Shown here one piece after another: positions 56,718 to 62,778 of a DNA stretch of 64,000 nucleotides. The stretch covers positions 496,001-560,000 of the forward strand of contig NZ_QWFZ01000003.1 of assembly GCF_003576315.1 (NCBI RefSeq). Direction: 5' to 3'. Both the position numbers and the translations under genes were made by a program. The stretch is from Henriciella mobilis (GTDB lineage Bacteria > Pseudomonadota > Alphaproteobacteria > Caulobacterales > Hyphomonadaceae). Positions within the stretch are counted from its first letter, which is position 1, and the number at the start of each line of letters is the position of its first letter. The notes under the pieces are model-generated. The model was not told the DNA's origin and ran no database searches. It saw only the letters and a list, made by a program, of their open reading frames with translations.

Positions 56718-57313
56718 GCTGCTATTACGCCTCGAACACGCAAATAATCCAGTAAAGGCAGCAGGGGCAGCCCAAGGATCGAAAAATAGTCACCTTCGAT
56801 TCTGCTGAACAGTTGTGCTCCCACACCTTCCAGCTGGTAGGCACCGACCGTGTTCAGGATATCCGGTCCTGCAGCCTTGAGATAGTGATCGATGAAGGTG
56901 TCATCCAGCGGGCGAACCGTCAGTTTTGGAGACGTCAGATGCCGCCAGACGGGCTCGCCGTTCTCTGCAATAACAATTGCCGTTTCCAACCGATGAACCT
57001 TGCCCGAGAACCGCCGAAGATGACGGGCCGCCTCGGCCATGTCGGCAGGCTTGTCGAGCGGCTCGCCGTCCAAGTTCAGCATCTGGTCGCCGCCAATGAC
57101 GAGACCTGAATGATTGCGGGACACCTTTATGGCCTTTAGCTCGGCCAGGCGCAGCGCCTGGTCAGCGACACGCATGCCCTCCGCCCGAAAAGCCGCTTTG
57201 GCGGCGTCTTCGTCGACATTGGGTTTAATGCCTGTTGCTTCGACACCCGCATTTGCGAGCAGGCTTCGTCGACTGGCGCTGCCAGACGCCAGAATCACAG
57301 AAAGTTTGTTCAT
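56714..57313 (-). CDS. maf: Maf-family nucleotide pyrophosphatase
   Basis: Hydrolyses non-canonical or UTP/dTTP nucleotides to monophosphates. The 199 residues show LASGSASRRSLLANAGV at the N-terminus, GGDQMLNLDGEPLDKPADMAEA, RFSGKVHRLETAIV and GAYQLEGVGAQLF, which form the nucleotide and metal site. It overlaps ppsR and aroE by four bases on each side. Confidence 0.92.
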   Translation of the reverse strand: MNKLSVILASGSASRRSLLANAGVEATGIKPNVDEDAAKAAFRAEGMRVADQALRLAELKAIKVSRNHSGLVIGGDQMLNLDGEPLDKPADMAEAARHLRRFSGKVHRLETAIVIAENGEPVWRHLTSPKLTVRPLDDTFIDHYLKAAGPDILNTVGAYQLEGVGAQLFSRIEGDYFSILGLPLLPLLDYLRVRGVIAA

Positions 57314-58143
57314 CCCTGTCCCCGGCGCTCATTGAGTTTGTTCAGAATGGCGGCGGCCGTTTCTTCGACGCTTCGCCGGGAAACGTCGATCATCGTCCAC
57401 TTCTTGCGCTGGAAAAGGCGGCTCGCTTCGGTCACTTCGGACCTGACGGCTTCTTCGTCCGTGTAATCGGTTGTTGAAGTCTCATTGAGGGCGATAAGCC
57501 GCTGGCTACGAATCTGGACGAGGCGCTCAACGCCAATCTTGAGACCGATCACAAGCGGTCCATTCACTGGATCAATCTGATCGAGAACAGCAGGCGGCGG
57601 CACGCCCGGCACAAGCGGAATGTTTCCGGCCTTTACGCCCCGATTGGCGAGATAGACGCAGGTTGGGGTTTTTGACGTACGACTGACACCTACAAGAATC
57701 ACGTCAGCATGGATGAGGCCCTGCAGGTTTTGGCCATCATCATGTGCGAGTGCAAAGTTAATTGCCTCGATGCGCTCAAAATATTCCTGATTCAGCGCGT
57801 GTTGACCAGCCACCCGGTCGGTTGCTGCGACGCCGAGATGTCGGCTCAGCAGATGGATCGAAGCGTCGAGTACGGCCAGCACTGGTACCTGCTTGGCCCG
57901 GCAGAATTGCTCCAGCTTCATTCGAAGCGCCTCGTCCGAAATGGTGAACCAGACGACCCCCGGTGCCGCTTCGATATCACGCATGACCCTTTCCAGCTGG
58001 CGCTCGGAACGAACCAGGTAGTAATTGTGTTCAAGCGGAATAACATTTTCAAACTGCGCAGCAGCCGCACGCATGACTGCGTTCAGCGTTTCGCCAGTTG
58101 AATCCGAAACAAGGTGGACATTGAAGTATATGCTCGGGCGCAT
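57310..58143 (-). CDS. ppsR: Pyruvate, water dikinase regulatory protein (PpsR/DUF299)
   Basis: A bifunctional kinase and phosphorylase that switches phosphoenolpyruvate synthase or pyruvate dikinase. The 277-residue protein opens with YFNVHLVSDSTGETLNAV and contains the P-loop-like ILVGVSRTSKTPTCVYLANRG near residue 150 and IPLVPGV. The start at 58143 has GGAGA upstream; a longer frame exists but runs into the origin region. It is the first gene of the operon and the left flank of the replication origin. Confidence 0.92.
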   Translation of the reverse strand: MRPSIYFNVHLVSDSTGETLNAVMRAAAAQFENVIPLEHNYYLVRSERQLERVMRDIEAAPGVVWFTISDEALRMKLEQFCRAKQVPVLAVLDASIHLLSRHLGVAATDRVAGQHALNQEYFERIEAINFALAHDDGQNLQGLIHADVILVGVSRTSKTPTCVYLANRGVKAGNIPLVPGVPPPAVLDQIDPVNGPLVIGLKIGVERLVQIRSQRLIALNETSTTDYTDEEAVRSEVTEASRLFQRKKWTMIDVSRRSVEETAAAILNKLNERRGQG

Positions 58144-58323
58144 TGATTCTCCGGACCATGAGGTTCGCGCGAAACTGCCGGGAAGCGATGAAATCGACAA
58201 CCCCTGTGGACACGTTGTGGGAGAATCATTTTGCCCACTATTGTTCACCGGCAATCCACATGCAGCTGATTCCAACAGGCTGGAGTCTCATCCTGTTCCA
58301 AGCGGTGGACCGCGCCTAAATGG

Positions 58324-58339
58324 TTAAGCAAAAATTAAC
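58324..58339. promoter_or_regulatory. CtrA-binding box, perfect consensus
   Basis: TTAA at 58324-58327, a 7-base spacer, and TTAAC at 58335-58339: an exact match to the CtrA consensus TTAA-N7-TTAAC. Phosphorylated CtrA bound here would be expected to block initiation and regulate the hemE-side promoter, as in Caulobacter. Confidence 0.8.
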
Positions 58340-58354
58340 GGCGATTCCAAAGGT

Positions 58355-58369
58355 TTAATGAAGGGTAAA
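58355..58369. promoter_or_regulatory. CtrA-like box, one mismatch
   Basis: TTAA at 58355-58358, a 7-base spacer, then TAAA at 58366-58369, one base from TTAA-N7-TTAA. It lies 15 bases after the perfect box, in the AT-rich block. Paired sites are common in the Caulobacter origin, so it is likely a second CtrA site. Confidence 0.55.
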
Positions 58370-58498
58370 TTTCTAGCACCGCCGTTGGACTCGCTGTGGA
58401 ATTCATGCTGACAACACCGCCTGAGACGGTTTGTCCACGATTTCCAGTGGCTAAGAGTGATAAGAGCCGAATCTAATGGAAAGTTTGAAGGGAGCCAG

Positions 58499-59542
58499 AT
58501 GGCTAACGACGTGACAAAACCTCTGCTGGACGTACTGCTTGGCAACAGACATGACCCCGTTCCCGTCTGGATGATGAGGCAGGCGGGCAGACATCTTCCA
58601 GAATATCTAGAGCTAAGATCACGCGCGAAGAATTTTCTTGATTTCTGTTACACGCCATCGCTGGCGACAGAAGCTACCCTTCAGCCGATTGAACGCTATG
58701 ACATGGATGGTGCAATTCTGTTCGCGGACATTCTTTTGGTGCTCGACGCGCTCGGACAGGGCGTGCGGTTTGAAAAAGGTGTGGGACCAATCGTTGAACC
58801 TGTTGAGCCTGGCGGCCGGCTCAACAAGGTTCCTGTACAGACAGCCAAAGAAAGGTTGTCACCTGTCTATGAAACGGTGTCGCGTGTGCGGGACAAGCTC
58901 GATCAGTCAAAGACGTTGATTGGCTTTGCCGGTGCGCCGTGGACCGTCGGGCTATATGCAATTGAAGGAAGAGGCGGGACCGACAAGAATACGGCTCGGC
59001 TCTGGGCGCATGAAAACCCGGCAGGGCTCGATCTTCTACTGGACGATCTCGTCGAAGTGACCGCTCATTACATGGCTGCGCAGGCGGAAGCTGGCGTTGA
59101 TGCCTTGATGATGTTCGAATCCTGGGCGGAGGGTCTAGCGAATGACGTATTCGAACAGATTATTGTACAACCCAATCGCAAGCTTGTATCGCGCCTGCGT
59201 GAGCTTGGTGTCGACGTGCCCATCATTGGCTTTCCGCGTGGGGCAGGGACGATGCTGCCCGCCTATGTCGATGCGACCGCCGTCAATGCCGTTGGCCTGG
59301 ACACGGCGATTTCTCCTGGCTTTGTAAATCGGGAACTGCCGGACAGATTTCCTGTTCAAGGTCATCTGGATCCTCTGCTGCTCCTCGCAGGCGGGGAAAA
59401 GATGGATCGGCGCGTCATTGAGTTGATCGAGGCCTATCGTGACCGGCCCCATATATTTAATCTGGGCCACGGTGTCCTGCCAGAAACCCCGATCAAGAAT
59501 GTTGAAAGGGTGCTGGAGATAATCCGAAACCGGGCGAAATGA
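58499..59542 (+). CDS. hemE: Uroporphyrinogen decarboxylase
   Basis: Decarboxylates uroporphyrinogen III to coproporphyrinogen III in haem synthesis. The 347-residue enzyme contains PVWMMRQAGRHLPEYLELR, DGAILFADILLVLDALG, and GFAGAPWTVGLYAIEG, then GFPRGAGTML and HGVLPETP, the family's substrate-pocket residues. The ATG at 58499 has GGGAG upstream. It is transcribed away from the predicted origin. Confidence 0.96.
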   Translation: MANDVTKPLLDVLLGNRHDPVPVWMMRQAGRHLPEYLELRSRAKNFLDFCYTPSLATEATLQPIERYDMDGAILFADILLVLDALGQGVRFEKGVGPIVEPVEPGGRLNKVPVQTAKERLSPVYETVSRVRDKLDQSKTLIGFAGAPWTVGLYAIEGRGGTDKNTARLWAHENPAGLDLLLDDLVEVTAHYMAAQAEAGVDALMMFESWAEGLANDVFEQIIVQPNRKLVSRLRELGVDVPIIGFPRGAGTMLPAYVDATAVNAVGLDTAISPGFVNRELPDRFPVQGHLDPLLLLAGGEKMDRRVIELIEAYRDRPHIFNLGHGVLPETPIKNVERVLEIIRNRAK

Positions 59543-59569: not shown

Positions 59570-59995
59570 ATGACATACCTCTGGCTGAAGGCATTCCACC
59601 TTATTTTTGTGATCGCTTTTATGGCGGGCATGTTGATTTATCCGCGTTACAAGTTGCATCAGCTGACAGCGAAGGCCGGAGATCCGCTTTTCGAGACGAT
59701 GAAGTCTGCTTCCAACAAGTTGCGGATAATTATTCTGAATCCGTCCGTGATCCTCGTATGGGTCCTGGGAATTGCGATGGTGGCTATGAATCACGGGTTG
59801 CTATCGCAAGGATGGTTTCACGTGAAACTCCTCTTTGTCCTGATCCTGACCGGATTGCACGGCTACTTTATCTCGATGGGAAAGAAGATCGACAACGGCG
59901 AGACGCTGCCGGCAAAGCAACTGAAATTGCTGAATGAAGTCCCGTTTCTGTTAATGATTGTCATCGTTGTTATGGTGATCGTCCGGCCGTTCTGA
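59570..59995 (+). CDS. hemJ: Protoporphyrinogen IX oxidase HemJ (membrane)
   Basis: A 141-residue four-span protein of the UPF0093/HemJ family, the oxygen-using protoporphyrinogen oxidase of many bacteria lacking hemG or hemY. It shows YLWLKAFHLIFVIAFMAGMLIYPRYKLHQ with the conserved histidine of the first span, and WFHVKLLFVLILTGLHGYF with the second. It follows hemE directly, supporting haem synthesis. A parS-like site lies inside its coding sequence. Confidence 0.88.
   Translation: MTYLWLKAFHLIFVIAFMAGMLIYPRYKLHQLTAKAGDPLFETMKSASNKLRIIILNPSVILVWVLGIAMVAMNHGLLSQGWFHVKLLFVLILTGLHGYFISMGKKIDNGETLPAKQLKLLNEVPFLLMIVIVVMVIVRPF
59814..59829. other. parS: parS centromere site, 14 of 16 bases
   Basis: A 16-base palindrome whose central 14 bases, GTTTCACGTGAAAC, exactly match the ParB-binding parS consensus; only the two end bases differ. 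It lies within hemJ, encoding the residues WFHVKL, and is 1.3 kb from the predicted origin. Confidence 0.7.
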
Positions 59996-61449: not shown

Positions 61450-62778
61450 ATGACGGCTGCGCGCGACACGATCTGCGCGCTCGCTTCCGGGCCGCCGCCA
61501 TCCGCGATCGCGATCATTCGCATCAGTGGTCCTGGCGTTCGTGTCATATGCAACCAATTACTTGTGCCTGGATGGACTGCGCCGCGAAAGGCAGTCTATG
61601 GCCGTATTCGGGACAGATCCGGTGAAGTGATCGATGAAGGACTGGCGGTCTTCATGCCCGGGCCTGCGTCGTACACCGGAGAAGATACCGCGGAACTCTA
61701 TCTGCATGGTGGCGCTGCGGTTATTGAACATGCGCTCGACGCTATTTGCAGTTTCGAGGATACCCGGCTTGCGGAAGCCGGCGAGTTCACCCGGCGTGCG
61801 TTTGAGAATGGAAAGCTTGACCTGGTAGAAGCTGAAGGCGTTGCGGACCTGATCGATGCGGAGACCCGCGCGCAAAAGCACTTAGCCCTCGATCAACTCG
61901 ACGGCCGATTGTCCAGGCAATATGAGGTCTGGCGATCGTCGCTTCTAAACGCTCTAGCGTTGCTGGAAGTGAGCATCGATTTTCCCGACGAAGACGATGC
62001 GCCCGATGAAACCAGAGAACCAGTTGCGCGGACACTTCGCGAGATGGAGGCGAGTCTCGAGAAGGCGTTGGCCGATGACTCGGTCGGTGAACGAATTCGG
62101 GATGGCTTTCATATCGCGATCGTTGGTCCGCCGAATGCAGGAAAATCGTCATTATTGAACAAGCTCGCGCGCCGGGAGGCAGCCATTGTCTCCGATATTC
62201 CGGGGACGACTCGGGATGTGGTTGAGGTTCGGTTGAAAATCGGTGGTCAGATCGCCTGGGTTGCGGATACCGCAGGCCTGAGGGAGGCTGCCGACGTGAT
62301 CGAAGCCGAGGGCGTTCGGAGAGCACAGCAAAGGGCGGCCTCCGCAGATCTCCGGATCCAGGTTCGCGCTGCCGACGATCGCACGGACTTTTCCGAGTGT
62401 GGAGAAGACGACCTTCTCGTGGTCAACAAAATCGATCTGGCGGGTGAAAACGCTAAGTGGCCCGATAGTGCCATGGTGATCTCCGCGATAACAGGAGATG
62501 GGATCCGTGAATTGGAGCGCATAATTGCAAACATAATCTGCGCAAAGGCCGGATCAGTTGGGGCGCCCCTTATTACACGGCGCCGGCATAGGCTGGCTCT
62601 GGAATCCGCACTGTTTCACGTGAAACAGGCAAGCGACCTGATAACGCGCGGGGGTGGGGCGGAATTGGTGGCGGAAGATGTGCGGCTAGCATCCCGGCAG
62701 CTTTCCGGGCTTATTGGAGAAATCGGCGTAGAAGAGATTCTTGGCGCCGTATTCTCGTCCTTCTGTATTGGGAAATGA
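61450..62778 (+). CDS. mnmE: tRNA modification GTPase MnmE
   Basis: With MnmG it installs the carboxymethylaminomethyl group at the wobble uridine of several tRNAs. The 442-residue protein has an N-terminal tetrahydrofolate-binding domain, a GTPase domain (VGPPNAGKSSLLNKLARREA, DIPGTTRD, VADTAGLREA, VVNKIDL) and the C-terminal cysteine motif ending CIGK. It is next to mnmG, a common pairing. A perfect parS site lies within its C-terminal coding sequence. Confidence 0.96.
   Translation: MTAARDTICALASGPPPSAIAIIRISGPGVRVICNQLLVPGWTAPRKAVYGRIRDRSGEVIDEGLAVFMPGPASYTGEDTAELYLHGGAAVIEHALDAICSFEDTRLAEAGEFTRRAFENGKLDLVEAEGVADLIDAETRAQKHLALDQLDGRLSRQYEVWRSSLLNALALLEVSIDFPDEDDAPDETREPVARTLREMEASLEKALADDSVGERIRDGFHIAIVGPPNAGKSSLLNKLARREAAIVSDIPGTTRDVVEVRLKIGGQIAWVADTAGLREAADVIEAEGVRRAQQRAASADLRIQVRAADDRTDFSECGEDDLLVVNKIDLAGENAKWPDSAMVISAITGDGIRELERIIANIICAKAGSVGAPLITRRRHRLALESALFHVKQASDLITRGGGAELVAEDVRLASRQLSGLIGEIGVEEILGAVFSSFCIGK
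62612..62627. other. parS: parS centromere site, perfect 16-mer
   Basis: The full palindrome TGTTTCACGTGAAACA, an exact match to the ParB-binding consensus, lies within mnmE and encodes part of the residues LFHVKQ. It is 4.1 kb from the predicted origin. Confidence 0.85.

Follow-up and report, generated by a model that had tools for sequence, protein, structure and literature searches.

The window analysed here is a stretch of 64,000 bases (bases 496001–560000 of a 949-kb contig, in an assembly of 3.97 Mb and 39 contigs), and the locus of interest is a gap of 355 bp between two divergent genes in it. The left neighbour encodes a ppsR-type regulator that falls short of the threshold set by NF049928, a narrower PpsR model; the right neighbour is hemE, whose relatives among 17 named loci include two Henriciella MAGs (88 and 86% identity), H. 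aquimarina (83%) and H. pelagia (80%). Neither the ORF list nor the profile matches placed a recognised gene within 58144–58498, and both flanks were identified by profile, in agreement with the preliminary description, which had called the ppsR/hemE gap gene-free. The ORFs that protrude into this non-coding region are start-extended forms of both flanking ORFs and a 100-codon ORF (58025–58327) that is partly antisense to ppsR. Among the nearest identified genes, transcription is directed away from the gap, with maf and ppsR running leftward and hemE, hemJ, rho and mnmG rightward.

The features are listed below in window coordinates. Conservation refers to the 29 genomes of the window's genus (g1, window included), and mismatches of DnaA-like boxes are counted against the DnaA consensus TTATCCACA.

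57310..58143, minus strand: ppsR-type regulator (PPDK/PEP synthase regulator family), left flank (NF003742, 317 bits)
58144..58498, no strand: predicted chromosomal replication origin, the intergenic ppsR–hemE gap, 355 bp
58145..58473, no strand: seven GANTC (CcrM) sites, starting at 58145, 58223, 58268, 58283, 58343, 58388 and 58469
58205..58213, minus strand: DnaA-like box A1, 2 mismatches; TGTGGA core in 29/29
58216..58224, minus strand: DnaA-like box A2, 3 mismatches here; TGTGGA in 22/29
58252..58260, plus strand: DnaA-like box B, 2 mismatches; TCCACA in this column in 14/29
58317..58376, no strand: AT-rich block, candidate unwinding region, 68% AT, spanning both CtrA boxes
58324..58338, plus strand: predicted CtrA box 1, perfect TTAA-N7-TTAA; at most 1 mismatch in the same column in 25/29
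58355..58369, plus strand: predicted CtrA box 2, 7/8 bases; at most 1 mismatch in the same column in 28/29
58395..58403, minus strand: DnaA-like box C1, 3 mismatches; TGTGGA in 24/29
58431..58439, plus strand: DnaA-like box D, 2 mismatches; TCCAC core (58434) in 29/29
58458..58464, plus strand: TGATAAG element, kept in 26/29
58499..59542, plus strand: hemE, uroporphyrinogen decarboxylase, right flank (TIGR01464, 350 bits)
59815..59828, no strand: parS core GTTTCACGTGAAAC inside hemJ (contig C23, 555815–555828)
62613..62626, no strand: parS core inside ORF 61450–62778, probably mnmE as judged by eye (contig C23, 558613–558626)

Sequence elements of the gap

Motif frequencies were compared with a control of 168,645 bases from the same genome, composed of 19 sampled stretches and the remainder of the window. 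The seven GANTC sites of the gap stand against 0.62 expected per 355 bases from the control mean, and the control maximum was five per 355-base window (5-base steps; Poisson P ~4e-6 for the gap). The single GANTC positions of the window are partly conserved, each recurring in 1 to 20 of the 29 g1 genomes. The perfect TTAA-N7-TTAA at 58324 is the sole one in the 64-kb window, and the entire control contains one; every one of the 29 g1 gaps has at least one predicted CtrA box within one mismatch. Both boxes of the window fall in the AT-rich block, the top 60-mer by AT content, equalled at one other place, and the gap as a whole has 50% GC vs 61% for the window.

The DnaA-like boxes are weak. No 9-mer of the gap lies within one mismatch of TTATCCACA; four have two mismatches (58205, 58252, 58431 and 58446) and several more have three. 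Across the whole window 91 sites have two mismatches or fewer, and taken one by one the boxes exceed chance only modestly. If boxes of any affinity are admitted, the gap holds predicted DnaA boxes, all of them weak. These counts bear out what the preliminary description had listed for the gap, namely clustered GANTC sites, CtrA boxes, an AT-rich block and weak DnaA-like boxes with two to three mismatches each. An IHF site overlapping a CtrA box is a mark of Cori in the strict sense; in the window's gap, no match to the E. coli IHF consensus WATCAANNNNTTR was found at up to one mismatch. The conserved TGATAAG element sits ~35 bp upstream of hemE and is a candidate for a promoter or for a part of the unwinding region; genus g4, treated below, has another conserved block at a similar position.

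An 11-bp pitch of DnaA-like cores among relatives

We fetched 150 regions upstream of hemE, 90 from the 103 matches in the family and 60 from the 156 order-level matches outside it; they were hand-picked with long contigs favoured and cover five families. The ppsR-type/hemE arrangement with a gap of less than 700 bp was present in 146 of the 150, and these gaps, i.e., the window's own and those of 145 relatives, were kept (the 17 named hemE loci stand outside the counts). Two of the four dropped regions were cut by contig ends, one was without the ppsR motif and one had a gap of more than 700 bases. Gap length is nearly constant within g1, at 349–363 bp in all 29 genomes.

When the spacing of same-strand TGTG[GA] cores was counted between 6 and 40 bp, 11 bp was dominant (78 of the 107 gaps of the first set; the next spacing reached 17). 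Altogether, 81 of the 146 gaps contain a TGTG[GA] pair at 11 bp, vs a mean of 0.4 and a maximum of 2 in 30 rounds of shuffling. The pair was present in 28/29 gaps of g1, 39/39 of g4, 4/4 of g7, 6/16 of f3, 2/3 of g9, 1/2 of g2 and 1/1 of g6. It was found in none of the gaps of f2 (0/24), f4 (0/15), g10 (0/5), g3 (0/3), f5 (0/3), g5 (0/1) and g8 (0/1), which rules it out as a universal trait. Because of the kinship among the genomes of each group, the counts do not stand for independent events. Adding TGGGGA (W-box-like) cores yielded an 11-bp pair in one gap each of g10 and f4, and left 11 bp outside the commonest spacings of f2. As side observations, the commonest TGTG[GA] spacing in f4 (15 genomes) is 12 rather than 11 bp (7/15), and g10 (5 genomes) and g5 (1 genome) have dense GANTC, 9.4 and 12 per gap, without an 11-bp TGTG[GA] pair.

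The pairing was not seen outside the gaps: no 11-bp pair occurs in the flanking ppsR sequence of g1 or g4, TGTGG-N6-TGTGG is absent from the 168,645-base control, and the pair at 58205 is the only TGTG[GA] pair at 11 bp in the window. It is formed by A1 and A2, which share their orientation; A2 comes to within 0–1 mismatch of TTATCCACA in 14 of the 29 g1 genomes. A scan of gap positions 58150–58479 on both strands gave the lowest mean mismatch to TTATCCACA across g1 for A2, A1, D and C1, in this order. The g1 consensus also shows a neighbour 11 bp ahead of C1 (58384), which is degenerate in the window. A third candidate beside this pair, C2 at 58406, was discounted with a mean of 3.4 mismatches across g1.

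This pitch has a parallel in E. coli oriC, where the low-affinity DnaA sites of an array are described as lying exactly two base pairs apart, i.e., at an 11-bp pitch (excerpt of PMC4451416). Unlike oriC, the window's gap has no near-consensus anchor, and CtrA and CcrM take the place of Dam and SeqA. The likeness to Cori of Caulobacter crescentus is of another kind. According to excerpts of PMC4468827 and PMC4285127, both have TTAA-N7-TTAA CtrA boxes, weak DnaA boxes, GANTC sites and hemE alongside; Cori has five CtrA boxes vs two clear ones here, and its two G-boxes TGATCCACA and five W-boxes TCCCCA contrast with the TCCACA-type pairs at 11 bp. GATCCACA, which stands for the Cori G-box, occurs 0 times per gap in the 29 g1 gaps, that of the window included. 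From its TCCCCA-type words we infer that f2 is the Caulobacter family, and its 24 gaps without a pair are built differently. The label "Caulobacter-type" given in the preliminary description is therefore apt for gene context, CtrA and GANTC but does not fit the geometry of the boxes. What is new here is the fixed 11-bp pairing of DnaA-like cores, which gives the likely initiator sites a regular spacing that can be put to the test; gene context, CtrA and GANTC were to be expected from Caulobacter and Hyphomonas.

GANTC sites inside the paired boxes of genus g4

Genus g4, probably Hyphomonas, combines the pairs with the methylation motif: in 107 of its 109 11-bp pairs, one box or both contain GANTC (TGTGANTC). 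Its 39 gaps contain 162 GANTCACA/TGTGANTC sites vs none in 23,734 flank bases, and these account for 162 of the 312 GANTC sites in the gaps. None of the 109 pairs has the TGTGG+TGTGG form that is usual in g1; thus, one member of the pair has seemingly been swapped for a methylatable box. That a T at position 5 is tolerated elsewhere is shown by the Helicobacter pylori DnaA box TCATTCACA (excerpt of PMC4285127). G041, a record of 3,705,021 bases whose gap was delimited roughly and which is not among the 39, has three GANTC-bearing pairs and no perfect CtrA box.

For g1 the idea of GANTC inside DnaA-like boxes was rejected, as GANTCACA occurs once in 29 gaps and twice in 29,374 flank bases. The window's GANTC at 58223 overlaps the last two bases of A2 and is kept in one of the 29 g1 genomes. 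The GANTC cluster of g1 is strong but lies mostly outside the boxes, which makes g1, with its pairs mostly free of GANTC, the natural contrast to g4 with its GANTC-bearing pairs.

The TGTG[GA] pairs at 11 bp might belong to another protein, such as a nucleoid protein or a GANTC reader like GcrA, which would account for the deviation of the boxes from the DnaA consensus and for the GANTC in nearly every g4 pair. We consider this unlikely, given that the TCCACA core, the 11-bp pitch and the place beside an AT-rich block fit known DnaA arrays, and that A2 approaches TTATCCACA so closely in about half of g1.

If the pairs are taken as DnaA sites, it is conceivable, and we propose it tentatively, that in g4 one box per pair was rebuilt around a CcrM site, such that hemimethylation could alter the affinity for DnaA and block re-initiation. 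This would be an alphaproteobacterial counterpart of the Dam/SeqA control of E. coli oriC, with a block lasting until CcrM acts. For Caulobacter the role of origin methylation is disputed. A model of 2008 made a fully methylated Cori a condition for initiation (excerpt of PMC2217572). A study of 2014, as excerpted, reported that in minimal medium cells lacking CcrM keep a normal DNA-content profile, concluded that CcrM is dispensable, extended this to Alphaproteobacteria and noted extra chromosomes upon over-expression of CcrM (PMC3973325). Should DnaA bind the boxes of g4, methylation gating may turn out differently in this clade, and the g4 pattern offers a place to test directly whether origin methylation gates re-initiation. 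A limited literature search, with PMC2217572, PMC6090056 and PMC8116508 in excerpt, found no GANTC inside the DnaA boxes of a chromosomal origin.

Strand asymmetry, partition sites and the reading of the gap as an origin

GC skew was computed from sampled stretches of the window's contig and 19 stretches of one complete congener. On the own contig, sampled at 19 stretches, the skew of 21 stretches in all is negative in 10 of the 11 to the left of the gap and positive in 9 of the 10 to its right. The preliminary description had put forward the cumulative skew over the complete genome as a check; within a contiguous piece of 79 kb, the skew changes in the 1-kb bin that begins at 58001 and its cumulative minimum falls at 57460, 0.7 kb short of the gap. 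The skew thus switches at the gap in sampled stretches of one contig, with a weak signal and a broad minimum (the lowest value is -323, and both 48 and 56 kb are at about -280). The complete congener is noisy: 7 of 10 stretches right of the gap are positive and 6 of 9 left of it negative, the cumulative minimum beside the gap (-0.190, counting 10 kb of each stretch) is matched by another at a distance of a quarter chromosome (-0.188), and the distant one becomes lower when the whole 20-kb stretch beside the gap is used. Its skew fits an origin in the gap weakly and only roughly, being too noisy to place the minimum.

The perfect 14-base parS core GTTTCACGTGAAAC occurs four times in the 3.97-Mb assembly, and all four copies lie 1.3–6.3 kb right of the gap, two within the window and two just outside it at contig positions 560248 and 560776. 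Measured against the consensus of 16 bases, the hemJ copy has a deviating base at each end. parAB adjoins these sites, with a ParB gene (TIGR00180) and a ParA-like gene called by eye, for which no NCBIfam match was found at E < 1e-40.

Hyphomonas neptunium presumably belongs to the same family as the window's organism. Within the literature covered, partly in excerpt, it is the only member of the clade in which initiation has been measured. Excerpts of PMC6650430 state that GC skew, DnaA sites and other bioinformatic markers gave no clear origin, that the marker-frequency maximum lies close to hemE on a plot that marks both hemE and dnaA, and that parAB is ~7 kb from hemE, with two parS sites; CtrA ChIP-seq found binding beside the origin (excerpt of PMC7200025). 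The window resembles this arrangement in an origin close to hemE with parAB nearby, CtrA being bound there and its boxes predicted here. It differs in four 14-base parS cores vs two sites of the published consensus, counts that follow different criteria. Weak boxes, their 11-bp pairing and, in g4, GANTC within the core may explain why DnaA-site searches in H. neptunium were unclear.

The best explanation is that the gap is, very probably, the chromosomal origin (oriC) of a Henriciella-like alphaproteobacterium, as the preliminary description had proposed; the skew switch, parS and parAB to the right and the H. neptunium peak close to hemE support this reading, and we infer binding, unwinding and regulatory order as set out below. 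Points against it are the absence of a near-consensus DnaA box and of an IHF match within one mismatch, the weak skew with its broad minimum, the rough agreement of the congener, the distance of dnaA and the scores of DnaA and CcrM under their model cut-offs. DnaA would load cooperatively on the weak boxes, which form head-to-tail pairs spaced by one helical turn: A1/A2 stand on the left side of the AT-rich block and C1 with its degenerate neighbour on the right side, and B and D are in opposed orientation. Loaded DnaA would melt the AT-rich block between the pairs, while phosphorylated CtrA on the two boxes in the block may hold the origin shut in non-replicating cells. CcrM would re-methylate the GANTC cluster once the fork has passed, and ParB on the nearby parS sites could then move the newly copied origin away.

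The same elements could instead mark a divergent ppsR/hemE promoter under the control of CtrA and GANTC methylation, with replication starting nearby, e.g., at parAB. Promoters, too, use CtrA boxes and GANTC as elements, hemE must have its promoter in this place with the conserved TGATAAG just upstream of the gene, and a broad skew minimum cannot resolve sites a few kb apart. This is nevertheless very unlikely, as such a promoter leaves unexplained the conserved 11-bp pairs, which are missing from the ppsR flanks in both g1 and g4 and, in their TGTGG-N6-TGTGG form, from the control, and the peak close to hemE measured in H. neptunium (in excerpt). The roles of promoter and origin are compatible and not exclusive. 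An origin near dnaA, as in many bacteria, can practically be dismissed: dnaA is on the same contig, at 926 kb and ~372 kb from the gap, but of the eight stretches sampled between 600 and 949 kb, which lie to either side of dnaA, seven have positive skew, and the excerpted H. neptunium plot places the maximum close to hemE with dnaA marked as well.

With the gap read as oriC, this report places the origin for a Henriciella-like genus; a limited literature search (Henriciella and replication origin) found no origin paper on Henriciella. The genome encodes DnaA (TIGR00362, 323 bits, under the cut-off of 344), CtrA (NF045991, 405 bits, over the cut-off of 350), a CcrM relative (NF050803, 609 bits, under the cut-off of 830) and a GcrA relative (PF07750, over its cut-off). 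Four further DnaA-family matches of identical score, in 285-aa open frames on contigs C10, C24 and C32 (L003–L006), each lie within ~2.3 kb of a contig end. They resemble IstB-type helpers from a repeated insertion element, one that may break the assembly.
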